DNA of 46,808 bases, from assembly GCA_017395245.1 (NCBI GenBank), contig JAFPVR010000089.1, forward strand, positions 1 to 46,808, given 5' to 3'. Shown piece after piece: positions 1,938-46,808 of this stretch (its first letter is position 1; the number at the start of each line of letters is the position of its first letter). Source of the DNA: Bacteroidales bacterium. GTDB taxonomy: Bacteria; Bacteroidota; Bacteroidia; Bacteroidales; WCHB1-69. Under the pieces are notes generated by a model. The model was not told the DNA's origin. It made no database searches and saw nothing but the letters and a program-made list of their open reading frames with translations. The translations under genes were made by a program, and so were the position numbers.

Positions 1938-3731
1938 CTAAATAATACTAATTGCACCGAATTTACATTTCTCAATACACGTACCGCACTTGATACAGAG
2001 CTCTTGGTTGATTTCGTGCGGCATCTTGACTGTGCCCTTGATGGCGCCGACGGGGCAGTTGCGGGCGCAGGCCGTACAGCCTTTGCACTTCTCCGCGTCG
2101 ATGACATACTGTTTGAGGGCCTTGCACTGGCCGGCGGGACATTTCTTTTCGGTGACGTGGGCCACGTATTCGTCCCAGAAGTTGTCGATGGTGGACAACA
2201 CGGGGTTCGGGGAGGTCTGGCCCAAGCCGCAGAGCGCCGTGTCTTTGATGACGTGGCTGAGGTTCTTCAGCAGGGCGAGGTCTTCCATGGTGCCGTTACC
2301 CTTGGTGATGCGGTCGAGGATTTCGCTCAGACGCTTGTTACCGATACGGCACGGGGTGCACTTACCGCAGGATTCCTCCACGGTGAAGTCGAGGTAGAAC
2401 TTGGCGACGGAGACCATGCAGGAGGTCTCGTCCATGACGATCATACCGCCGGAGCCCATCATGGAGCCGGCAGCCACGAGGTTGTCGTAGTCGATCGGGG
2501 TGTCGAGGAACTTCTCGGTCAAGCAGCCGCCGGAAGGACCGCCGGTTTGCACGGCTTTGAACTTCTTGCCGCCCTTGATGCCGCCACCGATTTCGTAGAT
2601 GACCTCACGAAGGGTGATGCCCATAGGAACCTCGATCAGACCGACGTTGTTGATCTGGCCGGCCAAAGCGAACACTTTCGTGCCTTTGGACTTCTCGGTG
2701 CCGATGGAGGAGAACCACTCCCAACCCTTGTTGATGATGACGGGGATGTTGGCGTAGGTCTCAACGTTGTTCACGTTGGAGGGTTTCTTCATGTAACCCG
2801 AAACGGCCGGGAACGGGGGTTTGAAGGTGGGTTCGCCGCGTTGACCTTCCATGGAGTGGATCAGAGCGGTTTCCTCACCGCAAACGAATGCGCCGGCACC
2901 GTAGCGGAGGATGATGTCGAAATCGAAGCCTGTGCCGAAGATGTCCTTGCCGAGGAGGCCGTACTCACGAGCCTGGTCGATAGCGACCTGCAGACGGTGG
3001 ATGGCCAGCGGGTACTCAGCGCGGATATAGACCAGACCGATGGTGGCGCCGATACAGAAGCCGCCGATGGCCATAGCCTCGATGATGGAGTGCGGGTCGC
3101 CTTCCAAGATGGAACGATCCATGAATGCGCCGGGGTCCCCCTCGTCAGCGTTGCAGATGATGTATTTCTGGTCGGCAGCGTTCTTGGCGCAGAGTTCCCA
3201 TTTCAAACCGGTGGGGAAGCCGGCGCCGCCGCGGCCGCGAAGACCGGATTTCTTGATCAGGTCGATGGTGGCAGCGGGGTCGTTTTGCTCCAAAACGCTG
3301 GCCAAAGCCTTGTAACCGTCACGTGCGATGTACTCGTCGATGTTTTCGGGATCGATGAAACCGCAGTTACGCAGGGCGATACGCATCTGTTTCTTGTAGA
3401 AGCCCATGTGCTTGGAGTCGGAGATGTGCTCCTTGTCCTCGGGGTTCTCATAGAGCAGGCGCTGCACCTTACGGCCTTTGATGATGTGCTCGTTGACGAT
3501 TTCGAGGGCGTCTTCGGGCTTCACCTGGGTGTAGAAGGTGTTGTCGGGAAGAATCTTCACAATGGGGCCTTTTTCGCAGAAGCCGAAGCAGCCGGTGGTC
3601 ACCACCTGCACATCGTCGCTGAGGTTCTTCTCCTTCAGGATTTGAACAAAATTCTCTCTGATTTTGGGGCTCTCCGAAGCCGTACATCCCGTACCGCCGC
3701 AGAGCAGAATGTGGTATTTGTAACTTGCCAT
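1938..3731 (-). CDS. hydB: HydB/NuoF-like flavin subunit of bifurcating hydrogenase
   Basis: NAD(P)H- and FMN-binding subunit that links pyridine nucleotide to HydA; in characterised bifurcating hydrogenases this type of subunit carries the bifurcating flavin. Domains along the 597 residues: an N-terminal thioredoxin-like [2Fe-2S] domain (Cys11, 16, 48, 52); a NuoF core with the glycine-rich GRGGAGFPTGLKW motif (about 165-180) for NADH/FMN; a SLBB-like middle; the CGKCTPCRIG cluster motif (about 455-465) with a later CGLGQ; and a C-terminal 2x[4Fe-4S] ferredoxin domain (CKGCTACARNC and CIKCGTCIEKC). The fused N- and C-terminal iron-sulfur domains separate this type from respiratory complex I NuoF. 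It lies 18 nt after the small 2Fe-2S gene and 15 nt before hydA. It has a strong Shine-Dalgarno sequence, listed separately. Confidence 0.95.
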   Translation of the reverse strand: MASYKYHILLCGGTGCTASESPKIRENFVQILKEKNLSDDVQVVTTGCFGFCEKGPIVKILPDNTFYTQVKPEDALEIVNEHIIKGRKVQRLLYENPEDKEHISDSKHMGFYKKQMRIALRNCGFIDPENIDEYIARDGYKALASVLEQNDPAATIDLIKKSGLRGRGGAGFPTGLKWELCAKNAADQKYIICNADEGDPGAFMDRSILEGDPHSIIEAMAIGGFCIGATIGLVYIRAEYPLAIHRLQVAIDQAREYGLLGKDIFGTGFDFDIILRYGAGAFVCGEETALIHSMEGQRGEPTFKPPFPAVSGYMKKPSNVNNVETYANIPVIINKGWEWFSSIGTEKSKGTKVFALAGQINNVGLIEVPMGITLREVIYEIGGGIKGGKKFKAVQTGGPSGGCLTEKFLDTPIDYDNLVAAGSMMGSGGMIVMDETSCMVSVAKFYLDFTVEESCGKCTPCRIGNKRLSEILDRITKGNGTMEDLALLKNLSHVIKDTALCGLGQTSPNPVLSTIDNFWDEYVAHVTEKKCPAGQCKALKQYVIDAEKCKGCTACARNCPVGAIKGTVKMPHEINQELCIKCGTCIEKCKFGAISII

Positions 3732-3736
3732 AAGTG

Positions 3737-3743
3737 ACCTCCT
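3737..3743 (-). promoter_or_regulatory. Strong Shine-Dalgarno sequence for hydB
   Basis: On the minus strand AGGAGGT ends 5 nt before the hydB ATG. Such a full match to the anti-SD is uncommon in Bacteroidetes, where start sites usually have only an A-rich leader. It fixes the start at 3731. Confidence 0.75.
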
Positions 3744-3749
3744 TACTGG

Positions 3750-4145
3750 TTATTTGTCGATTTTCTCATAATTCACCGGGATGACACCCTCCAGGATTTC
3801 GCCGTTCATGACGTACTTGGAGACGAGTTCCTGGCCTTTCTTGGTGTCCACGTGACCGAAGACGATGGGGTCTTGGCCGGGTTTCTTCACCTCGACGGTG
3901 GGTTCTGCGTAGCAGTAGCCCATGCAGCCGGTCTGGGTGACGACGGCCTTGACGTTCTGCTTGTTGCACTCCTCGATGATGGCTTCCATGGTCTGCTTCG
4001 CGCCGGAGGCGATACCGCAGGTTGCCATAGCCACCTTGATCTGCACCAGGTTTTCGACGTTCTCGCCGCCTTCGCGCAAGTCAATCTTGGACTGCAGCTC
4101 TTCTCTCTTTTTCTTGAGATCTGCCAATGATTTGATTTTTTCCAT
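3750..4145 (-). CDS. Small thioredoxin-like [2Fe-2S] ferredoxin-domain protein of the hydrogenase operon
   Basis: First gene of the hydrogenase operon (131 aa). After a charged helical N-terminus (about 1-30) comes a thioredoxin-fold [2Fe-2S] domain with the family pattern 'ATCGIASGAK' (Cys43) and 'TQTGCMGYC' (Cys74, Cys78). The same fold forms the N-terminus of HydB and the core of NuoE. Stand-alone proteins of this type are found next to hydB in clostridial and Bacteroidetes bifurcating hydrogenase loci and probably act as an extra electron-transfer subunit or module. Translation should start at the ATG at 4145, preceded by an AT-rich leader. A -7-like box lies 79 nt upstream. The exact role is not known; membership in the complex is inferred from position. 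Confidence 0.85.
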   Translation of the reverse strand: MEKIKSLADLKKKREELQSKIDLREGGENVENLVQIKVAMATCGIASGAKQTMEAIIEECNKQNVKAVVTQTGCMGYCYAEPTVEVKKPGQDPIVFGHVDTKKGQELVSKYVMNGEILEGVIPVNYEKIDK

Positions 4146-4223
4146 ACTATAAAATTTGGTTGTAGATTTATTTTATTGTTTTGTTGATATTTACGACAAA
4201 ACCTCTCGCTTTTTTTAGCGCGG

Positions 4224-4231
4224 CAAAGGTA
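4224..4231 (-). promoter_or_regulatory. Bacteroidetes-type -7 box for the hydrogenase operon
   Basis: On the minus strand TACCTTTG is followed by GCCGCG, matching the TAnnTTTG consensus, 79 nt before the first gene of the operon. No good TTG lies 19-21 nt further upstream, so only the -7 element is supported. Confidence 0.55.
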
Positions 4232-4329
4232 CAAAAAAAAGTGATACAAAAGTATGGAAAAAACGGGGTGATTTTAAGGAGTTGAAAACGCGGTACAAAC
4301 TCTCGTTTTCCTGCGAAAACCCAATCCAG

Positions 4330-4361
4330 AATTTAACTATTCAAGGCTGAATAGTTAAATT
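4330..4361. repeat. 32-bp perfect inverted repeat in the divergent hydrogenase/DUF5618 spacer
   Basis: Two 14-nt arms (AATTTAACTATTCA and TGAATAGTTAAATT) flank the 4-nt spacer AGGC. The site lies about 50 bp upstream of the plus-strand promoter and about 100 bp upstream of the hydrogenase -7 box. It could be an operator or a hairpin. The T-run on either side is too short for a convincing terminator. The rest of the 358-bp spacer holds the two promoters and AT-rich sequence without other visible signals. Confidence 0.6.
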
Positions 4362-4411
4362 TAATTTTTCAATATTCTGATTCCCAGGGAAATAAAAATT
4401 TCGCAAAACCC

Positions 4412-4442
4412 TTGACAAACATTGGATTTTGTTGTATCTTTG
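4412..4442 (+). promoter_or_regulatory. Bacteroidetes promoter for the DUF5618-like gene
   Basis: TTG at 4412-4414 and TATCTTTG at 4435-4442 are 20 nt apart, matching the -33/-7 arrangement. The predicted transcript has a leader of about 55 nt before the ATG at 4504. Confidence 0.75.
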
Positions 4443-4503
4443 CCTCCGAGAAATAACACGTAGGACATTAAACTTAAGACTATTGATTTTAACCCTTAAA
4501 CCT

Positions 4504-4905
4504 ATGGAAGTGAAAAATCCCATTGAAGAGGCCAGAAGGTATGTGGCCAATGCTGAAATGGTCATTGTGAATGCCAACTATGACCCTGAACTGAAAATTT
4601 ATACTGACGGAAAATACGTCAAGATGGCTGGTGACACTCTCTGGAAAGGATGCCTGATTGCACTGGATGCCGCCTTGGGCATACGGAAAGGCAAAGGCAG
4701 GCCTTCGATAGAGAAATACAAGGAGGCCGCCGGCAAGCGTGACCGCAAACTGCTGGCGGCCATCGTGGCAGGTTATGACATTATGCACCTGTCTATGGGC
4801 TATGACGGTACTAAGAGCAAGAAAATCTGCGATGTGGGCTTCGAGACTGCGAACGCCATTATCGACCGCTGTGCCGCGTTGATTCCGACGGAAATATACG
4901 CTTGA
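4504..4905 (+). CDS. Small all-helical protein, DUF5618-like
   Basis: A 133-residue protein of unknown function. The open frame extends upstream to 4429, but that start overlaps the -7 box, so the ATG at 4504 is chosen. There is no signal peptide or TM segment. The sequence is helical and charged; its best-conserved-looking parts are 'DGKYVKMAGDTLWKGCLIALDA' (shown here in part: KYVKMAGDTLWKG) and 'AAIVAGYDIMHLSMGYDGT'. These resemble the Bacteroidetes family DUF5618, which I recall as having a HEPN-like helical fold. That assignment is from memory of the family pattern and is not proven. No toxin or nucleotidyltransferase partner is adjacent: one neighbour is the divergent hydrogenase operon and the other a convergent secreted protein gene 5 bp away. 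Confidence 0.6.
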   Translation: MEVKNPIEEARRYVANAEMVIVNANYDPELKIYTDGKYVKMAGDTLWKGCLIALDAALGIRKGKGRPSIEKYKEAAGKRDRKLLAAIVAGYDIMHLSMGYDGTKSKKICDVGFETANAIIDRCAALIPTEIYA

Positions 4906-4910
4906 ACACC

Positions 4911-6338
4911 TTACCGTATCAACGTCACGCTTCCCTTCAACGTCTTCGGTTTCGCGCCGCGTGAGGTGTAATGCACCACCACCGCATACACGCCCTCTAC
5001 CGCGTTGGCGCCGTTCCAACCGAAGGTCGGCTCCTCGGTGCGGAACACTAAACCGCCCCAACGGTTGTAGATTTCCATGCTGTACTCCCCGATTTCGTCC
5101 GGATTGGTGAAGACGGGCAGGAAGATGGTGTTCTTGCTGTCGTCGTTCGGGGTGAAGGCGTTGGGGAGGTAGAGCACGTTCGGCTCGGTCTCCTCAACGA
5201 CGGTGGTGTCGGGTTCGATACCGTCGAGGGTGAGCGTCAGGATAACCGTGCTGTCACAACCGTGAATATTGTTGAAATACTGGGTGTAAGTGCTTTCTTG
5301 CGTGTAAGTTACGCCGTTCCAGACGAAGCTCTGCCCGCCATGCTCCTCGATTTCCACCACGTCGGGCTGAAGGAGGGTGAGATAGACCGTGATTTCGCTC
5401 TCACAGCCCGCCACACCGGCAATCCGGAAGAGGGTGGTGTCCAAGATATTGGCCGTCTCCTCCGCAGTCAGCGAGAAACCGTAACTGTTGTAGGTGGCGC
5501 CCTGACATATCGTATCGTAATAGGTTTGCGGTTCGTTGTCGAGCACCATCACCTCCACCGAGGCCGAATTGGTGCAACCGTAAGCATTGGAGACGGTTAC
5601 GGTGTAATTGGTGGTCTGCAGCGGAATATCCGAGAAATGCGGATCGGTGGAGCCGGTATTCCAGCTGTAGGTGAGGGTGGTGTCGTAAACATTTTCCGGA
5701 GGCGGAATGTTGCATACGGCCCGGACCATTGCGCGCTCACTCTTGAGGACTTGCATCGGGGTTCCAGTATATTGGGACCATGCAACAGCCGAACCGGCAT
5801 CTTCGGTAAAAGGAAGTAGCCATGCCTGGCTGCTGGATGATTCTGTGCTGCTCCAATAGATGTCTTGCCATGAGTAATAGGTGGAAGAATGCTCTGTCTG
5901 CAAAGGAGTCCCTCCTGCGGCCGTCAAGGCGGCCTGGATAAACGGCAGTTGGGCGTAAATCAGGCAGAGTTGTGCAAGGGAGGGCAGGTACCAGCCGTGG
6001 TCGAAATCCACCGCATTCGCAGCGTAGTCTCCAACCCCCGAGTAGTTGCGTATAGCCAAGGTGTTCGCATATCCGGAGGTGTCAGCAAGTGTCGTCTGAG
6101 AGGGGAGATCGTAATTGGTTAGTTCGGGAATGTCTCCCCCAACTCCTGTCCATACGTAACCGTGATCGCTCGGTGCATCGTGAAGCGCCACCGCCCATCC
6201 GCCTCCGTCCGCCGTCAAAAAGAAGACAATGCCCTGTGATCCGTCTTCGGCGGTGTACAAATCCCCGATGTGGTAGGTTTGTCCGAAGCAGACCATGGCA
6301 GCGAATTGCAACAGGAAGTATAGGACGTGTCTTTTCAT
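4911..6338 (-). CDS. Secreted protein with DUF1566-like domain and type IX sorting (type B) C-terminus
   Basis: A 475-residue exported protein. A signal peptide (about 1-20, ending FGQ) is followed by a DUF1566/Lcl-C-like domain (about 20-215) with 'HGWYLPSLAQL' and 'YWSSTESSSSQAW'. Next are Ig-like or SprB-like repeats with the 'TICQGATYNSYGF...GC' and 'GCDSTVILTL' patterns (about 215-385). It ends with a gliding-motility-associated CHU_C domain (about 390-475: 'LPNAFTPNDD', 'IYNRWGGLVF', 'WNG', 'GVYAVVVHY'). That tail is the T9SS type B sorting signal, so the protein should be exported across the outer membrane and probably surface-attached. It starts 15 nt after the larger related gene and is probably cotranscribed with it. 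The ligand is unknown. Confidence 0.85.
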   Translation of the reverse strand: MKRHVLYFLLQFAAMVCFGQTYHIGDLYTAEDGSQGIVFFLTADGGGWAVALHDAPSDHGYVWTGVGGDIPELTNYDLPSQTTLADTSGYANTLAIRNYSGVGDYAANAVDFDHGWYLPSLAQLCLIYAQLPFIQAALTAAGGTPLQTEHSSTYYSWQDIYWSSTESSSSQAWLLPFTEDAGSAVAWSQYTGTPMQVLKSERAMVRAVCNIPPPENVYDTTLTYSWNTGSTDPHFSDIPLQTTNYTVTVSNAYGCTNSASVEVMVLDNEPQTYYDTICQGATYNSYGFSLTAEETANILDTTLFRIAGVAGCESEITVYLTLLQPDVVEIEEHGGQSFVWNGVTYTQESTYTQYFNNIHGCDSTVILTLTLDGIEPDTTVVEETEPNVLYLPNAFTPNDDSKNTIFLPVFTNPDEIGEYSMEIYNRWGGLVFRTEEPTFGWNGANAVEGVYAVVVHYTSRGAKPKTLKGSVTLIR

Positions 6339-6353
6339 CTTTTGAGTTGCAAA

Positions 6354-8624
6354 TTAGAAGTTTCGGACGGCTCTGACGGGCATTTGGGTGATTTTCTCAC
6401 CCTTCATTATCGTTTGGTTGCTGGATATGAACCAAGCCATGGAATCGGAACTCTCTGTGGAAGTCCAGTATCGCCAATACGAATTCAAGGGGAAAATGTT
6501 GACCCCGACGGCTTGTAAGGAGTTGTTTACTATGCCGAGGGTGGCGTACAGGTAGTAGAATTGCGCGGCGGAAGGCAGATACCAGCCGTGGTCGAAGTCT
6601 ACCGCGTAGGCTGCAGGGAATTGGGTGGCAGTCCCTAAAGCCCTGATGTTGGCGGTATTCTGGTACCCGTCCACATCCGCCATAGTTGAAAAGGCGGAAG
6701 CATAATTTGTCAAGGGGGAAAGGTCGCTGGTCGTGGTTCCCCATTGGCGGGGAACGGGATTTTCGTTCAGACTGACCGCCCACCCGTGTTGCCCGGTTGC
6801 ATCCACGTAGAACACGATGCCCCAGGCCACTTTGCCGCAAGGCCAGTTTTGCGGATGCGCGAAAGTGCTGTCCGTGCACAGGATGTCCCCAACCGCCACA
6901 CTCAGAATCTGGGAGGGCAGAGTGACGGAGGCCTGAGAACCCACCGCAAACAGATTTGTCTCGCTCCCGACACATATCTCCGTCGGGTCAGCCAACGCCT
7001 CCACGGTAGGGGTCTCGGCCACAAGCAGTTCCAGTACACTGACGCTGTCGCACCCTTGCTGGGTTGTGCCATTCAGAACATGGACATAGTAGCCCGCTGT
7101 GTCTTGTGTGCCAAGCTGATATCCGTGCTGTGTGTAGGTGTTTCCCGTGCAGATAGTGTCGCTCAACATGATGGAATACGAAGAGCCGACAGCAATATCA
7201 AAAGGCAACGTGGCACTGCCGCAGCCATTGTCGGCGGTGAGCGAAATCTGTGCGGAAGAAGGGGCATTCTGCGTAAAGTAGAGCTGAGCGTTCGGGGTGC
7301 CTTGTCCGAGATAGACAATCACTCCGTCGGGAGCCGTCCAATGGTAGTTGGTGGTGGTCGGCGAGGGCGCATTGGGCAGGAAATAGGTTTCCAGGGAACC
7401 CTCGCACACCTCATGCGGACCATTGATGGTCTCGGACATCGAAAAGATGTGGTTCACCGTGAGATGCAAGATGGTCGTGGAGTCACAGCCGTAGGGAAGC
7501 GGTACGTAGGTGGTGTCCGTTACCTCTCCTTGGGTAAGCTGGGTCAAGTGAAAGCCGTTGGCGTTGTAACTCTCTCCTTCGCAGGCCATATCGTAAATGT
7601 GGTAGTAGCGGGGATGCACGTGCAGATATAACGTGTTGGTACCCTCTTCAATGCAGGCGGTTGCGTTGAAATAGGTGTTGGCGATGACATAATCCCCTGG
7701 TGTAGAATAGACTGGCAAGTTAAAACCGTGATTTTGGTAGTCCATCCCCTCGCATATCGTATCGTAAAAAACATAATCTTGCGGGATGGTGTCTTGGGTG
7801 AAGGTCACGGTTTCCAAAAGTTGGCAGCCGGTGACGGTGCTGATTTGGCATGTGGCCACCGTATTCCCTTGGATGGTATAGGTCGTGGTGGTTGCGTGAC
7901 TGCCGTTGTTCCAGGTATAGCTTTCAAACCCGCTGGGGGCGGTGATAGTGACTTGTTGGCCGGTGCAGCCCGTGATGGTCAGCTTGTTGCTGATGCAGGT
8001 AGCGGTAAAATAGGCATATCCGAAATGAGCGCCGGCCGTGCAGTCGAAAGTGGAAATCTGGAACTTCACGGTCTGTCCTGCGTATTGCGACAGATCAAAG
8101 CCGTTTGTTGTCCACGGCCGCCACATCACATGATTGTGAGCCTGAAATCCGGGAATGGTGGGCGACGATATGACATTGTATTCCATACATCCATTCAAAA
8201 GTGTGCCATTGGCATCCAACATCTGTATGAGAAAACGGGGTTGTTCTATTTCGACATGATGGGGATCTTCCAAAACAACAGCATACTTCAGCAGCAAAAT
8301 GGGATAATCCGGATTCACCGTGAAGGTGTAAACCAAGGATTCAGTTTCTGCACCTACACCGGAGTTTCCTAACCTCACCACCGCATTCTCGCCGTTCGGA
8401 ATTAACGGCAGTTGCCCACCCGTTTTCGGATCCGTGCCTTGCTGCGTAATGAGCGTGTGGCGATTCGGAACAATACCGACGTTCATGACGGTATCATAGA
8501 TATACCCATAGTATCCTGTCACGGCGTTGCTCGTCAAATCCATAAAATCCGGGCACTGCGCCTGCGCTGTGAGAGCTAAAAGTCCCCACAATAGAGTGCT
8601 CAATATGGATTTTTTAAGTTGCAT
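6354..8624 (-). CDS. Large secreted repeat protein ending in a DUF1566-like domain
   Basis: 756 residues from the ATG at 8624, chosen because a signal peptide (MQLKKSILSTLLWGLLALTAQAQ) begins there; an in-frame ATG at 8657 would add 11 residues and lies upstream of the -7 box. The first about 220 residues look like a jelly-roll/adhesin region. Several repeats follow with 'DTICEG..Y..HGF' and 'GCDSTTILHL' patterns, plus a PKD/Ig-like segment. The last about 150 residues are a DUF1566-like domain ('HGWYLPSAAQFYYLY', 'YWTSTESSDSMAWF') ending in VRAVRNF. Unlike its downstream partner it has no recognisable T9SS C-terminal domain. Likely cell-surface or secreted; function unknown. Confidence 0.8.
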   Translation of the reverse strand: MQLKKSILSTLLWGLLALTAQAQCPDFMDLTSNAVTGYYGYIYDTVMNVGIVPNRHTLITQQGTDPKTGGQLPLIPNGENAVVRLGNSGVGAETESLVYTFTVNPDYPILLLKYAVVLEDPHHVEIEQPRFLIQMLDANGTLLNGCMEYNVISSPTIPGFQAHNHVMWRPWTTNGFDLSQYAGQTVKFQISTFDCTAGAHFGYAYFTATCISNKLTITGCTGQQVTITAPSGFESYTWNNGSHATTTTYTIQGNTVATCQISTVTGCQLLETVTFTQDTIPQDYVFYDTICEGMDYQNHGFNLPVYSTPGDYVIANTYFNATACIEEGTNTLYLHVHPRYYHIYDMACEGESYNANGFHLTQLTQGEVTDTTYVPLPYGCDSTTILHLTVNHIFSMSETINGPHEVCEGSLETYFLPNAPSPTTTNYHWTAPDGVIVYLGQGTPNAQLYFTQNAPSSAQISLTADNGCGSATLPFDIAVGSSYSIMLSDTICTGNTYTQHGYQLGTQDTAGYYVHVLNGTTQQGCDSVSVLELLVAETPTVEALADPTEICVGSETNLFAVGSQASVTLPSQILSVAVGDILCTDSTFAHPQNWPCGKVAWGIVFYVDATGQHGWAVSLNENPVPRQWGTTTSDLSPLTNYASAFSTMADVDGYQNTANIRALGTATQFPAAYAVDFDHGWYLPSAAQFYYLYATLGIVNNSLQAVGVNIFPLNSYWRYWTSTESSDSMAWFISSNQTIMKGEKITQMPVRAVRNF

Positions 8625-8637
8625 ATTTTTTACTCCG

Positions 8638-8645
8638 CAAAAATA
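8638..8645 (-). promoter_or_regulatory. -7 box (TATTTTTG) for the secreted-protein pair
   Basis: Reads TATTTTTG then CGGAGT on the minus strand, 13 nt before the ATG at 8624. No clear -33 element is visible. Confidence 0.55.
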
Positions 8646-8708
8646 CAATAATTTCAATCTGTATGCGTTATTTGCACTGGAAAATTCAAACTTAAAAAAC
8701 CATCAGAT

Positions 8709-9446
8709 ATGAAAAACAAAGCAGTTGTCATCGCGATTATCGCCAGTATCGGGCTCTTTTTGGCCGCTATCGCCATCGGTGTGGCTTTCTATCAAACCAA
8801 AAAGCCTCAGAAAACCGTCTCCGTCGTCGGTCTTGTGGAGAAGGACTTCACCTCCGACCTCATCGTGTGGGAGTTCGACTATTCGGCTAAAGACCCGGAT
8901 ATGAAGGTGGCTTATACCAAGCTTAAAGAACAAAATGAAATTGTGAAAGCTTACCTCAAGAAAGCGAATATTCCCGAGAAAGAGATTGATTTCAAGAAAA
9001 TCACAACCCAACCGACCTATAACAGCTACTATGATGAAAATGGTCGTTGGCGGGAGACGTTTACTGGTTACGAGGCCAAACAGGCGGTGCGTATCGAGTC
9101 TCACGACATCGAGAAAATCGAGGCTCTCACCCGCGACATTGCCGAGCTTTACGACCAGAACATTATGATTAACAACGACAATCCCGAGTATTACTATACC
9201 AAGCTGTCCGACCTGAAGTTGCAGATGCTGGCCGAGGCCTCGCAGGATGCCAAAAATCGCGCCGAGACCATCACCAAGAACGCCGGTGCGAAACTCGGCG
9301 ACCTCAAGAGTGCGAACATGGGTGTGTTCCAAATCACCAAGCCCAACTCCTCCGAAGAGGACTACACCTGGGGCGGTGCCTTCAACACCTCATCGAAAGA
9401 GAAACGTGCCAGTATCAACATGCGATTAACCTATTATGTGAAGTAA
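8709..9446 (+). CDS. SIMPL-domain (DUF541) membrane-anchored periplasmic protein
   Basis: 245 residues. One N-terminal TM helix (about 5-28) acts as a signal anchor. The rest is a SIMPL domain (about 38-245) with the usual 'TVSVVGLVEKDFTSDLIVWEFDY' start (part: VSVVGLVEKDF), the middle 'QAVRIESHDIEKIEALTRDI', and the late 'EASQDAKNRAETITKNAGAKLGDL' region in which Ala/Lys-rich helices pack against the sheet. Family members are periplasmic or surface proteins of uncertain role, in some species linked to oxidative stress. It is divergent from the secreted pair and convergent with manC; a bidirectional terminator follows its stop codon directly. Confidence 0.85.
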   Translation: MKNKAVVIAIIASIGLFLAAIAIGVAFYQTKKPQKTVSVVGLVEKDFTSDLIVWEFDYSAKDPDMKVAYTKLKEQNEIVKAYLKKANIPEKEIDFKKITTQPTYNSYYDENGRWRETFTGYEAKQAVRIESHDIEKIEALTRDIAELYDQNIMINNDNPEYYYTKLSDLKLQMLAEASQDAKNRAETITKNAGAKLGDLKSANMGVFQITKPNSSEEDYTWGGAFNTSSKEKRASINMRLTYYVK

Positions 9447-37035: not shown

Positions 37036-38445
37036 ATGAGAAAGACATTCATATTCATAACCATTATCATGATGCTGTTTGTGATAGTTCCGGCGCAGAC
37101 GGTGACATTGATCTTCACGGGGCGTGACGCCAGCAACCAGTATATTCCTTTGAACCGCGTGGTTGTCAGCAATCTCACGCGCGGATGGCGAGAGACATTG
37201 ATATGGCCCGATACCGTGCTGGTCATGACGAATCAGACGGGCATTGACGATTTAGTGACGGATGGTTTCCTTCTGTCACAGAATAACCCCAACCCTTTTG
37301 ATGGTATCACGTATGTGAATTTGAACGTGACCGAGCCGGGAGATGTATCGTTGGTGATTACCGACATCACCGGACGCATCGTAGGGGCGAATAATTATTC
37401 GCCCCTACAACCAGGCATCCGCGAAATCCGCATCTCCCTGTCCTCAGCAGGTATCTACTTCCTGACTGCCCGGCAGAACGGGCAGACCGCTTCGGTGAAG
37501 ATGGTAAACCGTGGTAATGGTAGTGGTAATTCCATCGCCTTTACGGGCACCGTGAAGGTGAATAATGATTCGCCCCTACAGCAACCCAAAAATAACAACA
37601 AAGGTCTCACTGACAGCACCTTTGTCGCGGGCGATCAGATGCAATACGTGGGTTATGCCATATTTAACGGTGAAGAACAGGAGAGCGGGAATATGGTACA
37701 GACACAAGACAGTGCCCAGACGATTATACTGTCGTTCACCTTCTCTATTTTCGACTCTTTACCATGTCCAGGTACTCCCACTGTCACTGATATTGATGGC
37801 AACGTCTATAGCACGGTGCAACTTGGTCAGCAGTGCTGGATGAGGGAAAATCTACGGACTATGCATTACGCAGACAGTACCGCTATTTCTTTTGGTACCG
37901 CAAATATCAGCTACAGCCAACCTTATTACTATAACTACGTCAGTCACAGTCTTCCATTGGAAAAGCGAGGTTGTCTTTACAATTGGCCTGCGGTGATGCA
38001 TGGCGCAGCTTCTAGCGAGACTAACCCGAGTTGGGTACAAGGAATATGTCCTGCAGGGTGGCATGTGCCAAGCCATGCAGAGTGGGTACAATTGACCGAC
38101 TATGTGAGTAGCCAGAGTGTATATTCTTGTGATGGCAACAGCAGCCATATCGCTAAAACATTAGCATCCGCAGAGGGATGGAACAGTGATTATGATTATC
38201 ACCAATGTACGGTGGGTAATAATCAGGGTGCGAATAATGCAACAGGTTTCTGTGCTTTCCCTGCTGGTGAATGCATCGGCGAGACAACTTATTTTAATGG
38301 TGGATCTGTAACCCGTTTTTGGTCATCCACGGCAACAAATAGTGGCAACAAGTGGATGTGTAGTTTGGGGTATAACTCCACGTATGTGTGGCAGTATCCT
38401 GAACCACCCTACTGTGGCTTTTCTGTCCGCTGCCTCCGCGACTAG
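37036..38445 (+). CDS. Secreted FISUMP-domain protein with an internal T9SS-CTD-like region
   Basis: 469 residues. A signal peptide (about 1-21) precedes a short region, then a stretch that looks like a T9SS type A C-terminal domain but is internal (about 79-157: 'SQNNPNPFDGITYVNLNV', 'VSLVITDITGRIV', 'SLSSAGIYFLTA'). After a linker the C-terminal half (about 255-469) is a FISUMP/Fib_succ_major domain: 'DIDGNVYSTVQLGQQCWMRENLRT' (in part VYSTVQLGQQCWMREN), 'GICPAGWHVPSHAEW' and 'FWSSTATNS'. Residues 116-124 are encoded by a 28-bp palindromic repeat and 176-182 by a partial copy in the same frame. The frame is intact, so the protein appears to be made. Surface location is likely; ligand unknown. 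Confidence 0.85.
   Translation: MRKTFIFITIIMMLFVIVPAQTVTLIFTGRDASNQYIPLNRVVVSNLTRGWRETLIWPDTVLVMTNQTGIDDLVTDGFLLSQNNPNPFDGITYVNLNVTEPGDVSLVITDITGRIVGANNYSPLQPGIREIRISLSSAGIYFLTARQNGQTASVKMVNRGNGSGNSIAFTGTVKVNNDSPLQQPKNNNKGLTDSTFVAGDQMQYVGYAIFNGEEQESGNMVQTQDSAQTIILSFTFSIFDSLPCPGTPTVTDIDGNVYSTVQLGQQCWMRENLRTMHYADSTAISFGTANISYSQPYYYNYVSHSLPLEKRGCLYNWPAVMHGAASSETNPSWVQGICPAGWHVPSHAEWVQLTDYVSSQSVYSCDGNSSHIAKTLASAEGWNSDYDYHQCTVGNNQGANNATGFCAFPAGECIGETTYFNGGSVTRFWSSTATNSGNKWMCSLGYNSTYVWQYPEPPYCGFSVRCLRD
37381..37408. repeat. 28-bp perfect palindrome (GTAGGGGCG type) inside a coding sequence
   Basis: Arms GTAGGGGCGAATAA and TTATTCGCCCCTAC, no spacer, encoding Val-Gly-Ala-Asn-Asn-Tyr-Ser-Pro-Leu in frame. 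Confidence 0.9.
37561..37580. repeat. Partial in-frame copy of the GTAGGGGCG palindrome
   Basis: 20 nt matching the right part of the 37381 copy with one mismatch. It is translated in the same frame (Asn-Asn-Asp-Ser-Pro-Leu-Gln against Asn-Asn-Tyr-Ser-Pro-Leu-Gln). Confidence 0.8.
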
Positions 38446-42020: not shown

Positions 42021-42037
42021 CATTTTATTTGGGAATG

Positions 42038-42128
42038 GTGATTAGTGAACAGTGATTTGTGATTAGTGATTGGTGAACAGTGATTTGTGATTAGTGATTG
42101 GTGATTAGTGATTGGTGAACAGTGATTT
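42038..42128. repeat. Heptamer array J: thirteen GTGATTA-like units with higher-order order
   Basis: GTGATTA, GTGAACA, GTGATTT, GTGATTA, GTGATTG, GTGAACA, GTGATTT, GTGATTA, GTGATTG, GTGATTA, GTGATTG, GTGAACA, GTGATTT. The period is exactly 7 for 91 bp. The GTGAACA-GTGATTT-GTGATTA-GTGATTG block recurs, so part of it grew by 28-bp duplication. It lies between the divergent promoters of aspS and the RyR cassette. Confidence 0.95.
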
Positions 42129-42171
42129 GTTGAAATAAATGTCATCTATCCCTTCCGATGGAAAAAATTGT

Positions 42172-42179
42172 TACTTTTG
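42172..42179 (+). promoter_or_regulatory. -7 box (TACTTTTG) of the RyR-TIR cassette
   Basis: TACTTTTG followed by CACCG, 26 nt before the RyR gene ATG at 42206. No TTG is seen 19-21 nt upstream. Confidence 0.6.
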
Positions 42180-42205: not shown

Positions 42206-42502
42206 ATGGAAAACGGATACAGCCCAAAACCCATCGACACCACTGATGTCGAGCTTTCCGAAGAATTGCTTCTGCTCACCGAGCAGTTGGCGCGCAACGT
42301 GCACGACAACTGGGCCATCGGCCGCATAAACGACGGCTGGACCTACGGTCCCGAGCGCAACGACACCCTCAAGCACAATCCCTGTTTGGTGGATTATGAC
42401 GACCTTCCCGAAAGCGAGAAGGAATATGACCGGAATACTGCCATGGAGACGCTGAAGACAATCCTGAAATTAGGGTGGGGAATAGCGAAAATCACGGAAT
42501 AA
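42206..42502 (+). CDS. Stand-alone RyR-domain protein
   Basis: 98 residues, nearly all one RyR (ryanodine receptor) domain (about 20-94): 'LTEQLARNVHDNWAIGRINDGWTYGPERND', 'HNPCLVDYDDLPESEKEYDRNTAMETLKTILKLGWGI' (shown in parts: DNWAIGRINDGWTYGPERND and DLPESEKEYDRNTAMETLK). These are the strongest domain matches in the cassette. The start at 42206 is chosen because the longer frame from 42158 begins upstream of the -7 box. No TM or signal. Bacterial RyR domains are thought to bind small ligands, possibly nucleotide-derived, and often accompany channel or TIR proteins. The next gene starts 19 nt later. Confidence 0.88.
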   Translation: MENGYSPKPIDTTDVELSEELLLLTEQLARNVHDNWAIGRINDGWTYGPERNDTLKHNPCLVDYDDLPESEKEYDRNTAMETLKTILKLGWGIAKITE

Positions 42503-42521
42503 ATCATTAAAAATCAATATT

Positions 42522-43019
42522 ATGGCAGAAGAAAATAACACAGAAAAACTTCAAGAGGCGAAGGGAATCAAAGATGAAATTAAGAAACAAAATAGGAAGA
42601 ACGCATTTTACTTTACGGTAATCGTTGTGGTTCTCGCCTTGTGGATTCTTTTGGGAATGCTTACCATAAGGCAGTTATGGTGGCTGTACAGTGTCCAAAA
42701 GACGCCTCTCGATCTCATTTTGGTCATTTTTGTCATCACGGTTCTCACGGTGATGGCCGCTTTGGCCGTCCGTTTCTTGCACAAAAGAATGACGGAGAAA
42801 GACCAGGAAATAACGCGTTGGCGCACAAAACTTTTGGATGCTTATGGTTGCCTTCTGGAAGCAGAGGTGAATGTTGTTAAAAAAACGATTGAACCAAAGA
42901 AAGAAAAAACGCAAATCGAAAAAGATATAGAGGAAAAGAAGCAGAAACTTGAACTCGAGAAATTGAAACTCGAACTTCATGAAACGACGGAAAAACTGCA
43001 AAAGTATAACGAAAAGTAA
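42522..43019 (+). CDS. Two-TM protein with C-terminal coiled coil
   Basis: 165 residues, not recognised as a named family. The charged N-terminus (1-27) is followed by TM1 (about 29-48), a short loop with 'QLWWLYSVQKTP', TM2 (about 62-84), and a Lys/Glu-rich helical tail (about 92-165), strongly coiled-coil from about 125 ('EKDIEEKKQKLELEKLKLEL'). It lies between the RyR gene and the channel-like gene with 19- and 18-nt spacers, so it is probably a membrane partner or oligomerisation factor of the channel-like protein. More AT-rich than the flanking housekeeping genes. Confidence 0.75.
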   Translation: MAEENNTEKLQEAKGIKDEIKKQNRKNAFYFTVIVVVLALWILLGMLTIRQLWWLYSVQKTPLDLILVIFVITVLTVMAALAVRFLHKRMTEKDQEITRWRTKLLDAYGCLLEAEVNVVKKTIEPKKEKTQIEKDIEEKKQKLELEKLKLELHETTEKLQKYNEK

Positions 43020-43037
43020 TCCGAAAAATAGCATTTC

Positions 43038-45089
43038 ATGATTAACCGACTGATCAGCTTTTTTTTCTGGCATTTTGACCGCACTTTCGGCAACAGCCGC
43101 CGATGGGCAATACAAATACTGCATGTACTGACAATTCTTACAGTGGTAATTGTATTGTTCGCAGCTATTGGATTCTGTTTTAAAATAGGATATCAGCAAC
43201 CAAAAGGGAAAATTGAAGACAACATTTGGCTTCAGACTATCGGCATGATATTCAACGCCAGCAACCTGCCGCCTGCTACGGAGATGCGCGACATCCCTAG
43301 TTGGTGGCAAGTGATTGTCGCTCTGGTGGGTGCGGTCGTGTTCACTGGTTTCACCATCAGCTTCGTCGGCAATTTCTTGACCAACCGCATCAATGCCTAT
43401 CGCGATGGCTCTGTGAGATACTACTTCAGCGACCACATCCTCTTTTTGGGTGGTAGCAGGATGATTCCGCCCATGTTCAGGGAACTGATTAAAAATTCCG
43501 AGTATCGCAAAAAGCACTTCGTCGTTCTCACGAATGACGAGCCGGAGCGTGTGCGCCGGCATATTGACGGGGCTTTGGATTTGGAAGAGAAGAAAGGGCT
43601 GAAAATAACCGTGTTACGCGGTTATCGCGACGACAAAGAAACCTTGCAAAGTGTGCATTTGGACAAGGCGGCCAGAATCTACATTGTTGGGGACAATCCC
43701 TTCGATGTCGAACATGATTCCACCAATATGGCCTGCTGGAACTTGGCCAAACAGCTGTGTTCGCATCGGAAGGATGTGCCCTGCTTCCTGCTTTTCCGCC
43801 GGGAAAGTTCCATCTTCCTGTTCCGGCATCGGGACAGTGACATGAATCTTTGTTTGGACACCACTGTGGTCAACCGTTTGGAGTCGGTGGCGCAGCGCGT
43901 TTTGGTGCACAACGGCGGTGAGAACAGCCAGTATCCCCCGTTGGACAGAAACGGAATCGACAAAGACAGCAATCGAACCGTTCATTTTGTGCTGTACGGC
44001 ATGACTGCGGTCTCCTACGCGATGGCCACCACTGCCGCCCATCTATGCCATTTCCCGAACTTTGTCGCGCGCAACGCCAATGGCACATTCGGAGAAAACA
44101 AGGAAAGACGCACCAAAATCACCTTGATTGCGCCCAACATCAAAGAGGAAATGGCCTATATGACCACGCATTTGGACAGCCTTTTCAGCATTTCCAAGTA
44201 CGCCCTTTATGATAGCAACTGGAAGTTTGGCGACAAGAAGCCCGATCCTGTTTGGAGGCGTGAATTGGGCGAGGTGGGCGATTTCTTGGACATTGAATGG
44301 GAGTTTGTGGATGGCAACATTGCGGATGAACATGTGCGTATGTTGTTGAAACAGTACTACATAGACAATATGGAAGGAAAGACCTATCTCACGGTGGCCT
44401 TTTGTGGGGAGAAAGCGGACCGCAACACGGCGGGGGCGCTTTATCTGCCTTCGGAATACCACCGGATTACCATGAAAGAGGGTGGGGGAGACGAAATTGA
44501 TTACGAAAAGACCATCCCGATCTTGGTCTACCAGCCGGAGAGTGAGGAGTTGCTCAAAACCTCCAACCAGGAGATTGCCATGTTCCGTAATATTTTGCCA
44601 TTCGGCAGTGTGCGAGAGAGTTACGATCCCTCCATTCGCCGCCGGATTTTGGAGGGAAAGCGGATCAACTACATTTACAACCAGGGTGACGACTATGCCT
44701 TTATGACCTCCGATGCTGCTGTGTTGGACGGGCTTTGGCGGAAGGCGAAGTATGTGGACCAGATGTCCAACATATACAGCGCCAGCCACATAGGGGTGAA
44801 ATTGCGCAGTGTGGGCAACCGCACCGACCTCACGGACGAGGATGTGCAGCTGTTGGCCGTCACGGAGCACAACCGCTGGAATGTGGAGAAGCTGCTGATG
44901 GGTTTCGAGGCCTTGCCGAAGGCGGAGCGCGCCAAACAGAACACCGATGAAGGCTATAGGGAATTGAGAGAGTTAAGGAAGCAGTTCAAGCATTACTGCA
45001 TCGCACCCTACAGTGAACTTCTTTCCAAGGATAATAGTTCTGACATATTGATTGTGAAGAACTTGGGGGATGTGGTGGAAAAAGAGTGA
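43038..45089 (+). CDS. Putative ligand-gated membrane protein: 2 TM, RCK/TrkA-N-like and RyR-like C-terminus
   Basis: 683 residues. TM1 is about 24-50 and TM2 about 91-113; the segment between them ('DNIWLQTIGMIFNASNLPP') could hold a pore loop, but no canonical TVGYG filter is visible. A Rossmann-like RCK/TrkA-N region follows (about 130-225: 'HILFLGGSRMIPPMFREL', 'HFVVLTNDEPERVRRHI', 'ITVLRGYRDDKETLQSVHLDKAARIYIVGDN' in part VLRGYRDDKETLQSVHLDKA), a layout like CASTOR/POLLUX-type channels. The last about 65 residues ('LLAVTEHNRWNVEKLLMGFEALP', then 'FKHYCIAPYSELL') match a divergent bacterial RyR-like domain. Likely a nucleotide- or ligand-gated ion channel; the selectivity and gating are inference. 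Confidence 0.75.
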   Translation: MINRLISFFFWHFDRTFGNSRRWAIQILHVLTILTVVIVLFAAIGFCFKIGYQQPKGKIEDNIWLQTIGMIFNASNLPPATEMRDIPSWWQVIVALVGAVVFTGFTISFVGNFLTNRINAYRDGSVRYYFSDHILFLGGSRMIPPMFRELIKNSEYRKKHFVVLTNDEPERVRRHIDGALDLEEKKGLKITVLRGYRDDKETLQSVHLDKAARIYIVGDNPFDVEHDSTNMACWNLAKQLCSHRKDVPCFLLFRRESSIFLFRHRDSDMNLCLDTTVVNRLESVAQRVLVHNGGENSQYPPLDRNGIDKDSNRTVHFVLYGMTAVSYAMATTAAHLCHFPNFVARNANGTFGENKERRTKITLIAPNIKEEMAYMTTHLDSLFSISKYALYDSNWKFGDKKPDPVWRRELGEVGDFLDIEWEFVDGNIADEHVRMLLKQYYIDNMEGKTYLTVAFCGEKADRNTAGALYLPSEYHRITMKEGGGDEIDYEKTIPILVYQPESEELLKTSNQEIAMFRNILPFGSVRESYDPSIRRRILEGKRINYIYNQGDDYAFMTSDAAVLDGLWRKAKYVDQMSNIYSASHIGVKLRSVGNRTDLTDEDVQLLAVTEHNRWNVEKLLMGFEALPKAERAKQNTDEGYRELRELRKQFKHYCIAPYSELLSKDNSSDILIVKNLGDVVEKE

Positions 45090-45140
45090 AAAGAGCGAAT
45101 AGCCGAGACAAATAAACAAGTCAAATAAAATCGAGGAAAA

Positions 45141-45467
45141 GTGGACACCAATTTATCAAAAGAAGAATTCAAAGAGCTGGTCATGCTTTACGTGGCCAAC
45201 AGCGACGGTCGTGTGAACCTCGACGAGGTCCGCGCCATGTTGGAGAGAACCTCCCCGAAAGTCTATGCGGCGGTCCGTCTCAAGTTCGCCAAGATGAACG
45301 ACGTGGAGGTGCTGCAGTGCATCACGGAGCTCAAGAAGCATTATTTCACCACCGACGCCGACCGCCAGGAACTGTTAGCCGACCTGAAGGCTGTGGTGGA
45401 AGCCGACGGAAAGCTATTGCCGGTGGAGGAGTATTTGTTGAGGGGGGTTGAGGGAGTGTTTATCTGA
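45141..45467 (+). CDS. TerB-like domain protein
   Basis: 108 residues, starting with GTG at 45141 (GAGG 5-9 nt upstream). Two similar halves carry the TerB pattern: 'LVMLYVANSDGRVNLDEVRAML' (about 13-34) and 'LLADLKAVVEADGKLLPVEEYLLRGVEGVF' (in part AVVEADGKLLPVEEYLLRGV). The acidic DG motifs resemble the metal-binding pairs of TerB/TelA-associated proteins. It has no TM, so it is a cytoplasmic helical adaptor. TerB-like domains are found in stress and conflict operons beside TIR, vWA or ATPase genes. It lies 51 nt after the channel-like gene and 61 nt before the TIR gene. Confidence 0.68.
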   Translation: MDTNLSKEEFKELVMLYVANSDGRVNLDEVRAMLERTSPKVYAAVRLKFAKMNDVEVLQCITELKKHYFTTDADRQELLADLKAVVEADGKLLPVEEYLLRGVEGVFI

Positions 45468-45528
45468 GGAAAAAGGCTTAACGTGTTATCCTCATCCTGC
45501 ATTTTGATGAATATTAAAAATTGATTTA

Positions 45529-46701
45529 ATGACAAACTACGAAGAGTCAAGTGCTATTCAAGATAATCATGAGTATGATGTCTTTATTTCTTGTAAAAGC
45601 GAAGATTATACTCTTGGTTATGCTATTTATGAATTCCTCATTGAAAATGGTGTTAGAGCCTTTTTCGCAGATCAGGAGTTAAGAAAGCTTGGATTCGCCG
45701 ATTATGGGAAGGTAATTGACAATGCTCTCGATGGCGTCAAGCACTTAATTGTCGTAGCCTCTAATGCGGATTTCACCAAAGAAAAGTGCTCCCCTTACGT
45801 ATATTATGAGTGGAAAACGTTTTCCGAAGAGAAGAGAAGCGGTAGAAAAACGGGAAATATTATGACGGTGGTTACTGACAAATCCATTGTCAAGTCTTTG
45901 CCTATCGCATTACGGAATGTCCAATCGTTCGTTTTTGACGAATACAAGCAAGTTTATAATTATGTGATTGGTGACATGCCATCCGATCCGAAGCCCAGCC
46001 CTTTCCGTCGAATAAAAAATTTCGTTCTCAATTTCAGACTTGGCAAGAATCTCGGTTGTGTTGTTTCAATAGTGCTTTTCGTCTTTTTGGGAGCTGTTAT
46101 TACACCATTTTTTTTCTTACACGAATCATCGGACCCGAGTGCTCCAGTGCTTGAACAAGATAATCCGTCGATTGAACCACACATTCGCCATAACGTTGGG
46201 ATTGGAGGACCCACAGTTCGTTCACGTTCAAATGTTCCAACACCTCCATCGATGGAAAACAGTGCTGTAACAGAGAGCAACAATTTGGTGGATTTAGTGC
46301 CATTCATCTATTTCGTTAAAGTTATGAAAATAGAAATCTATGATGTTCCAGATGATTGCTCTCACGTGCTGGATGGCGGTAAATGGGAATATGTTTTCAG
46401 CGATAATGCACCTACTGCGACAGGTTTCATTACTAACGACAGCGTTTTTGTCACCGCACGTCAGGTTGTAGAACCTTGGGCATATTTTGCATCTGAAGAT
46501 GGCGAATACAATCCATTTACAATAGCCAACATTTTTCACCAATGTAAAGCACAAATAGAAGTTACCCTTATGGCTGAAAACGAGACGGGCGATAAGCTTG
46601 TGATGAAAAGTTCTGATTTCAAAGTGTTTCGCCACAACGACGTCTCTAAAACTATTAACGAAGATTTTGGGGCAGCGGAAAATGTCCGTGGGAAGGGCTA
46701 A
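45529..46701 (+). CDS. TIR-TM protein with degenerate, short trypsin-like C-terminus
   Basis: 390 residues. The TIR domain (about 14-150) has 'YDVFISCKSEDY' (box 1) and the catalytic-type Glu in 'SPYVYYEW' (Glu94, matching the SxWCxxE position of NAD-cleaving TIRs). A TM helix (about 176-197) is followed by a Pro/Ser-rich linker (about 200-250) and a beta-rich region (about 255-375). There 'ATGFITNDSVFVTARQVVEPW' (shown as GFITNDSVFVTARQVVEPW) resembles the His motif 'TARHVV' of trypsin-like proteases, with Gln312 in place of His. The region ends after about 105 residues, far too short for a whole protease. It may be a truncated or repurposed sensor domain. The gene is clearly more AT-rich than aspS or hydA. 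Confidence 0.82.
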   Translation: MTNYEESSAIQDNHEYDVFISCKSEDYTLGYAIYEFLIENGVRAFFADQELRKLGFADYGKVIDNALDGVKHLIVVASNADFTKEKCSPYVYYEWKTFSEEKRSGRKTGNIMTVVTDKSIVKSLPIALRNVQSFVFDEYKQVYNYVIGDMPSDPKPSPFRRIKNFVLNFRLGKNLGCVVSIVLFVFLGAVITPFFFLHESSDPSAPVLEQDNPSIEPHIRHNVGIGGPTVRSRSNVPTPPSMENSAVTESNNLVDLVPFIYFVKVMKIEIYDVPDDCSHVLDGGKWEYVFSDNAPTATGFITNDSVFVTARQVVEPWAYFASEDGEYNPFTIANIFHQCKAQIEVTLMAENETGDKLVMKSSDFKVFRHNDVSKTINEDFGAAENVRGKG

Positions 46702-46735: not shown

Positions 46736-46743
46736 TACTTTTG
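46736..46743 (+). promoter_or_regulatory. -7 box (TACTTTTG) for the gene at the right edge
   Basis: TACTTTTG then CCGC, 4 nt before the ATG at 46748, which leaves a very short leader. Confidence 0.45.
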
Positions 46744-46747
46744 CCGC

Positions 46748-46808
46748 ATGGCAAAACAGACAGAAGATATATACAGGTCGTTGGCGAAGGTGTTCCTTCC
46801 CGAAGACA
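46748..46808 (+). CDS. Partial CDS at the right edge, unidentified
   Basis: Twenty codons are visible: MAKQTEDIYRSLAKVFLPED. Too little remains for identification. The pattern 'IY.SLAKVFLPED' recalls the N-terminal proteins of some Bacteroidetes transposase operons (ISAon1-like), which would fit the abrupt end of the TIR protein's last domain 47 nt upstream, but this is a guess. Confidence 0.45.
   Translation, partial: MAKQTEDIYRSLAKVFLPED

Follow-up and report, generated by a model that had tools for sequence, protein, structure and literature searches.

A Bacteroidales locus combining a TIR protein with a predicted RCK channel that carries an RyR domain, a candidate variant of nucleotide-signaling defense

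In Thoeris defense, a TIR protein is encoded beside an effector with a presumed sensor for an ADP-ribose (ADPR) signal, and one effector type is a caspase. Thoeris ThsA effectors also include SIR2-SLOG and Macro types. Here, we describe a similar arrangement in a five-gene operon (genes A to E, separated by short gaps) on the plus strand at 42206-46701 of the window. The window, the whole stretch of DNA that was analyzed, is 46,808 nucleotides long and is an entire contig (JAFPVR010000089.1) of the 3.78-Mb, 129-contig assembly GCA_017395245.1 of a Bacteroidales bacterium, a member of an order frequent in the gut and rumen. As in Thoeris, the TIR protein (E), which keeps a putative catalytic Glu in alignments, lies beside a candidate effector; unlike in Thoeris, the presumed sensor is an RyR domain and the effector (C) is a predicted two-transmembrane (2-TM), tandem-RCK channel. 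C shares its predicted pore and gating-ring fold with CASTOR/POLLUX/DMI1 and BK/GsuK but differs from them in its predicted extra C-terminal RyR domain, its lack of Castor_Poll_mid, and a filter that is degenerate in the window clade. RyDEP and the Repeat12 (PF02026) of animal ryanodine receptors have the same domain and ligand residues as the RyR of the window; however, RyDEP is a phage counterdefense protein and animal ryanodine receptors are giant Ca2+ release channels, whereas the RyR proteins here are host encoded and lie beside a TIR gene. Nucleotide-centered conflict systems with RyR, TrkA, and TIR associations were reportedly predicted by Burroughs et al. in 2015. The RyDEP ligand data postdate that prediction.

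Across related loci, we observed that the recurring core is the channel and an RyR domain, often with an NAD-consuming enzyme. We lean toward reading the locus of the window as a Thoeris-like, TIR-driven abortive-infection module with an ion channel as its effector. Because the visible part of the locus yielded no ThsA-type effector, we place it outside Thoeris, as a novel variant of nucleotide-signaling defense based on TIR. Neither Pfam nor PADLOC matched any of the five genes to an effector of the ThsA type (SIR2-SLOG, Macro, or caspase); the contig ends after E, and a further gene may lie beyond it. E matched the PADLOC candidate PDC-S66 best (1.4e-5) and ThsB at 0.021. CBASS and Pycsar were considered and set aside, as the only PADLOC match of this kind was a weak one between B and PycTM (E value, 0.009). 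No system combining TIR with an RyR/RCK channel was among the matches listed by a literature search, whose reach did not extend to the Yirmiya 2025 survey of TIR systems or to Burroughs 2015.

An earlier sequence-only reading had assigned a stand-alone RyR domain, a membrane coiled coil, an RCK-RyR channel-like protein, a TerB-like protein, and a TIR-TM protein to five consecutive plus-strand genes, and this assignment held for all five. Profile searches recovered RyR in A and TerB in D, both above the gathering scores (119.8 versus 27.4 bits for PF02026 and 34.9 versus 24.4 bits for PF05099, respectively). A longer open reading frame (ORF) for A begins at 42158. The predicted catalytic Glu of E was likewise retained: of the 66 TIR domains aligned, 64 have Glu at the E94 column and the other 2 have gaps, and E94 is invariant across 15 aligned TIR proteins. 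The nearest TIR relatives of E within channel regions (loci designated L) are in L097 (7e-31), L086 (4e-27), and L120 (1e-13). The C-terminal part of E, which may resemble a protease-like fold, is by eye not common to the aligned TIR relatives.

A Pfam search with C alone gave no useful match, and we therefore tested C through its family. With C as the query, a class-wide search matched 18 of 395 genomes at an E value of 1e-3; beyond the window, only one genome (G226) clearly matched over most of the length. A scan of a genome collection confirmed 252 relatives, and the best 80 of the 252, which are those examined here, comprised 79 Bacteroidota and one Treponema bin. An AlphaFold model of C (predicted local distance difference test, 91) matched the gating rings of DMI1/CASTOR and the GsuK/BK channels and contains a predicted CASTOR/POLLUX/DMI1-type 2-TM pore and RCK gating-ring fold. 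No RyR chain was among the 50 structure matches listed for the model, a list that the RCK part can fill. The C terminus of C had no single-sequence match to PF02026; the related channel of L128 scored 18.8 bits, and a family profile matched RyR structures at 9e-11. Castor_Poll_mid matched neither C nor the eight relatives scanned and did match the control, L009.

We then considered the ligand site. According to a 2026 preprint (PMC13232231), RyDEP is a mycobacteriophage RyR-domain protein that cleaves 2'/3' cyclic ADPR (cADPR) through a pocket of H75, W78, H100, and D117, and of eight phage RyDEP homologs tested there, six bind signals and none cleaves. We confirmed these residues in the sequence of gp78 (RyDEP) from the cited record and aligned it to the RyR domains. 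All four are matched in the RyR domain of C. Among 98 channel rows, the equivalents of H75, W78, H100, and D117 are present in 97, 97, 96, and 97, respectively; in 58 stand-alone RyR rows, the numbers are 58, 58, 38 (with T in 13 and N in 7), and 54. Because the motif used in the genome scan covers the first two residues, the 20 channels found by profile are the fair set for these positions, and there we found H in 19 and W in all 20. Only two RyR columns outside the motif reach 95%, and each of these holds a ligand residue. We set aside a P value of 3e-5 calculated for the four ligand columns, since the motif covers two of them. A, numbered from 42158, has H49, W52, N74, and D91 in its pocket and so matches three of the four RyDEP residues. 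As judged by these residues, phage RyDEP and a host RyR domain that is often beside TIR enzymes have a common ligand site. The proposal that RyR modules sense a cADPR-like TIR product finds external support in the preprint and in the conserved pocket residues.

Gene linkage was counted over 96 distinct full-length channel loci, with one channel per locus (the longest, which in L083 is the second copy). The counts omit CASTOR-like L077, L078, and L080, the L005 remnant, L135 (no channel ORF called), duplicates, and channels under 600 amino acids (L070, L071, L073, and L079); the tree described below also omits L076. TIR, TerB, and B profiles were custom-built and seeded from the window and its relatives. 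We counted a TIR gene within 1 kb of the channel in 24/96 loci, within 3 kb in 34/96, and in the fetched region in 41/96. TIR genes within 10 kb are mostly on the strand of the channel (54 of 59), and their density per 100 kb of coding sequence drops with distance from it, from 8.1 to 1.9. In L109, L121, L123, L124, and L128, the TIR gene is as near as 3 to 21 bp. A uniform PF13676 (TIR_2) profile gave 53 matches in about 63 Mb from 22 genomes and placed a TIR gene within 5 kb of 9 of 23 channel loci; without the window, this is 8 of 22 versus 0.23 genes expected. A small separate RyR gene is found within 3 kb in 48 of the 96 loci, and all 48 small RyR genes within 1 kb of a channel are on its strand, 17 upstream and 31 downstream. 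Mapped onto a tree of 95 channels, the TIR label requires 26 changes, and well-supported branches carry at least 21 of these, with some false "no" labels added by short contigs. The label is scattered on the tree: gains or losses of the pairing have been numerous, and it does not stem from one clone. The expectation that the families co-occur was borne out for TIR and RyR genes, which recur with the channel, but not for the full set: of the 109 regions examined, which include some duplicates, 7 hold B-like proteins and 3 hold D-like TerB proteins, and the complete set of five genes was seen in the window alone. None of the three outcomes that would have counted against the sequence-only reading was observed: TIR and RyR genes co-occur with the channel, RyR and TerB match in profile searches, and, as judged from sequence, the TIR domain keeps a catalytic-type Glu.

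Several relatives are informative about how the parts are combined. B-like proteins lie near the channel in L083, L085, L088, L091, L104, and L108, with the orders TIR-B-channel-RyR in L088, TIR-M48 peptidase-B-channel-RyR in L091, and RdrA-RdrB (RADAR-type)-RyR-channel-B-TIR in L108; L109 and L128 have RyR-channel-TIR with gaps of 0 to 19 bp. L112 and L116 to L118 encode, adjoining the channel, a fusion of RyR with a 2-TM coiled-coil part laid out as in B, which points to joint action of A and B. A DUF4062 protein adjoins RyR and the channel in L081, and in a neighbor scan of TIR-less loci (67 of 100 listed proteins), DUF4062, with AAA_16, was among the commonest nonrepeat families (3/67 scanned). 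DUF4062 domains are TIR-like NADases found in antiphage defense (PMC13174449). FGE-sulfatase, Sel1, Macro, or SIR2_2 parts are attached to several TIR proteins near channels, as though a single type of channel were served by many sensors. The place of the channel in L079 is taken by an MscS-type protein and a soluble RCK/RyR-type protein, and the locus also holds TerB, RyR, two TPR proteins, and a TIR-TM protein. D homologs are present in L079 and L083, the latter scoring 18.3 bits, below the PF05099 gathering score. The L083 channel is about 60% identical to C, and one strand of that locus carries genes for TerB (D-like) and nSTAND1, two further genes, RyR, B, and the channel. The start of a 1,210-residue L083 protein looked by eye like a DUF4062 motif; this assignment was dropped, as Pfam gave nSTAND1 and no DUF4062. 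RADAR-like RdrA and RdrB of L108 (positions 3128-9121) immediately precede RyR, channel, B, and TIR, which may be a RADAR accessory set.

From gene content, predicted fold, linkage, and residue conservation, we infer a trigger, signal, gating, toxicity, and antiphage role as follows. Infection would activate the membrane TIR protein E, and E, given TIR family chemistry and the kept Glu, would turn NAD+ into an ADPR-type signal, for example a cADPR isomer. The signal would bind the C-terminal RyR domain of C, whose residues match those of RyDEP. Binding would shift the tandem-RCK gating ring and open the modeled 2-TM pore, which would depolarize or leak the cell and abort the infection. A, with its membrane partner B, may be a second ligand-binding subunit, a buffer, or an off-switch, as adjacency and the RyR-2TM fusions hint, and D may be an accessory part. 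More tentatively, we propose a Bacteroidales ion channel opened through RyR by a TIR-made cADPR-type signal, with the stand-alone RyR, a host relative of RyDEP, as partner subunit or off-switch, and with it a new class of TIR defense in which one channel is served by many exchangeable NAD-consuming sensors. If so, an ion channel would join the effectors of TIR immunity, and there would be a host receptor for the signals on which phage RyDEP proteins act by binding or destruction. Such a locus would also be a bacterial counterpart of the long-disputed link between cADPR and the ryanodine receptor and a small system for testing direct cADPR action on the RyR domains of an ion channel. It would further suggest why phages carry RyR domains, namely to compete for the ligand that a host RyR sensor binds or to erase it.

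A number of observations, including those on the pore given below, weigh against a TIR-driven channel. No TIR gene was found within 3 kb in 62/96 loci or in the fetched region in 55/96, some of which are short contigs. Clustering of the TIR label on the tree does not exceed that of shuffled labels (mean, 28 changes; 111 of 500 shuffles were as low); therefore, the pairings do not last long. As TIR and DUF4062 genes often sit in defense islands, hitchhiking may explain part of the TIR linkage. A has N74 (preceded by H73) at the H100 position, where 38 of 58 stand-alone RyRs keep H, and D-like TerB is rare. A tblastn search of C against plasmid and phage records gave no match, and viral contigs held no confirmed relative of C. 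The ligand of the channel RyR could be ATP or ADP, since adenine nucleotides (AMP-PCP/ADP) bind animal RyR repeats (PMC12627627).

One alternative is a housekeeping or stress channel, in which adenine nucleotides or NAD gate the channel-RyR pair, as in GsuK, and TIR is no more than a frequent neighbor in variable defense islands. We consider this unlikely, although it is the best of the alternatives. Beyond the TIR-less loci and the animal RyR ligands, it draws on the near matches of the C model, which include GsuK structures in ADP- and NAD-bound form. However, TIR genes occur near the channel far above genome density, mostly on its strand and down to a few base pairs away; the distribution is patchy (27 of 393 genomes in an order-wide profile search at 1e-10, some CASTOR-like); and further neighbors of the channel are SIR2_2, nSTAND1, and RADAR-type genes besides DUF4062.

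Next in rank, and also unlikely, is that C is a nonconducting membrane-anchored receptor or scaffold, with harm done by TIR depletion of NAD and RyR proteins tuning or clearing the signal. The family consensus of the pore motif is DPGN, a filter kept in L054, for example, and the CASTOR filter is AD265S(A)GNHA; C has neither, and the Asp is replaced (by N, R, G, or A) in 15/15 rows of the window clade. CASTOR D265N passed no current (PMC6697748). Because this clade has lost the DPGN Asp and D265N carries no current, conduction in C may be nonselective or absent. Channel-type C-terminal parts with no predicted TM helices (L070, L079, and a second copy in L082) fit a scaffold as well, as does signal cleavage by RyDEP (PMC13232231), the equivalents of whose H75/D117 dyad are kept in A. 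Against a scaffold stand the 2-TM channel fold of the model, the Asp retained in 60/98 channel rows overall, and L079, where RyR-type proteins accompany another type of pore, MscS.

That five unrelated genes lie together by chance or as a contig-end artifact, as the uniqueness of the set and the contig end just after E might suggest, is very improbable, given that L083 repeats the RyR, B, and channel order with a D-like TerB upstream and that RyR-channel and TIR-channel pairs recur widely, which contradicts chance for the TIR, RyR, and channel genes and leaves it possible for TerB.

Table 1. Features of the operon and its flanks (window positions)
Feature	Position	Strand	Basis
Possible -7 promoter box of the Bacteroidetes type, TACTTTTG, ahead of A	42172..42179	+	Read by eye; full pattern unmatched
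A, stand-alone RyR domain protein, 98 amino acids from ATG 42206	42206..42502	+	PF02026, E value 6e-35; PDB RyR chains
B, small membrane protein, two TM helices and coiled-coil tail	42522..43019	+	TM prediction
C, channel-like protein with two TM helices, tandem RCK, and a predicted RyR domain at the C terminus	43038..45089	+	
Pore-loop motif of C, residues 73-76, NASN	43254..43265	+	
Predicted RyR domain in C, near residues 601-683 (H611, W614, H652, D669)	44838..45089	+	
D, TerB-family protein, GTG start	45141..45467	+	PF05099, E value 2e-8
E, TIR domain, one predicted TM helix, C-terminal domain	45529..46701	+	PF13676, E value 7e-7
Codon of putative catalytic Glu E94 of E	45808..45810	+	TIR alignments
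Repeat at contig end, bounding the downstream view	46740..46808	+	6 genome copies including this one, 65-69 bp each

The operon is preceded on the opposite strand by aspS (named by sequence), and between the two (42027-42127) is an imperfect tandem repeat with a 28-bp unit and 3.6 copies. The -7 consensus applied to TACTTTTG is that of Bacteroidetes. The contig-end repeat is possibly the start of a mobile-element gene, and the C-terminal half of the ORF at 37036-38445 presumably resembles a Fibrobacter-type repeated (FISUMP-like) surface domain. Two gut "Bacteriophage sp." records, MT837259.1 and MT836850.1 (L166 and L167), had the best RyR matches, and one of them holds RyR together with the beginning of a channel; we rejected them as close phage relatives, as they look like host Bacteroidales contigs, with outer-membrane and polysaccharide-type genes by eye. 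In the genome of the window, a 192-amino-acid ORF (L005, 7342-7920, contig C126) fuses the start of a stand-alone RyR to a channel RyR tail and looks like the remnant of a deleted second RyR-channel copy; a TIR gene lies at the start of that contig. The same genome has four TIR proteins in about 11 kb (L165, contig C76, 54000-72000), one with a Macro-like N terminus by eye that resembles the Macro-TIR beside the L097 channel.
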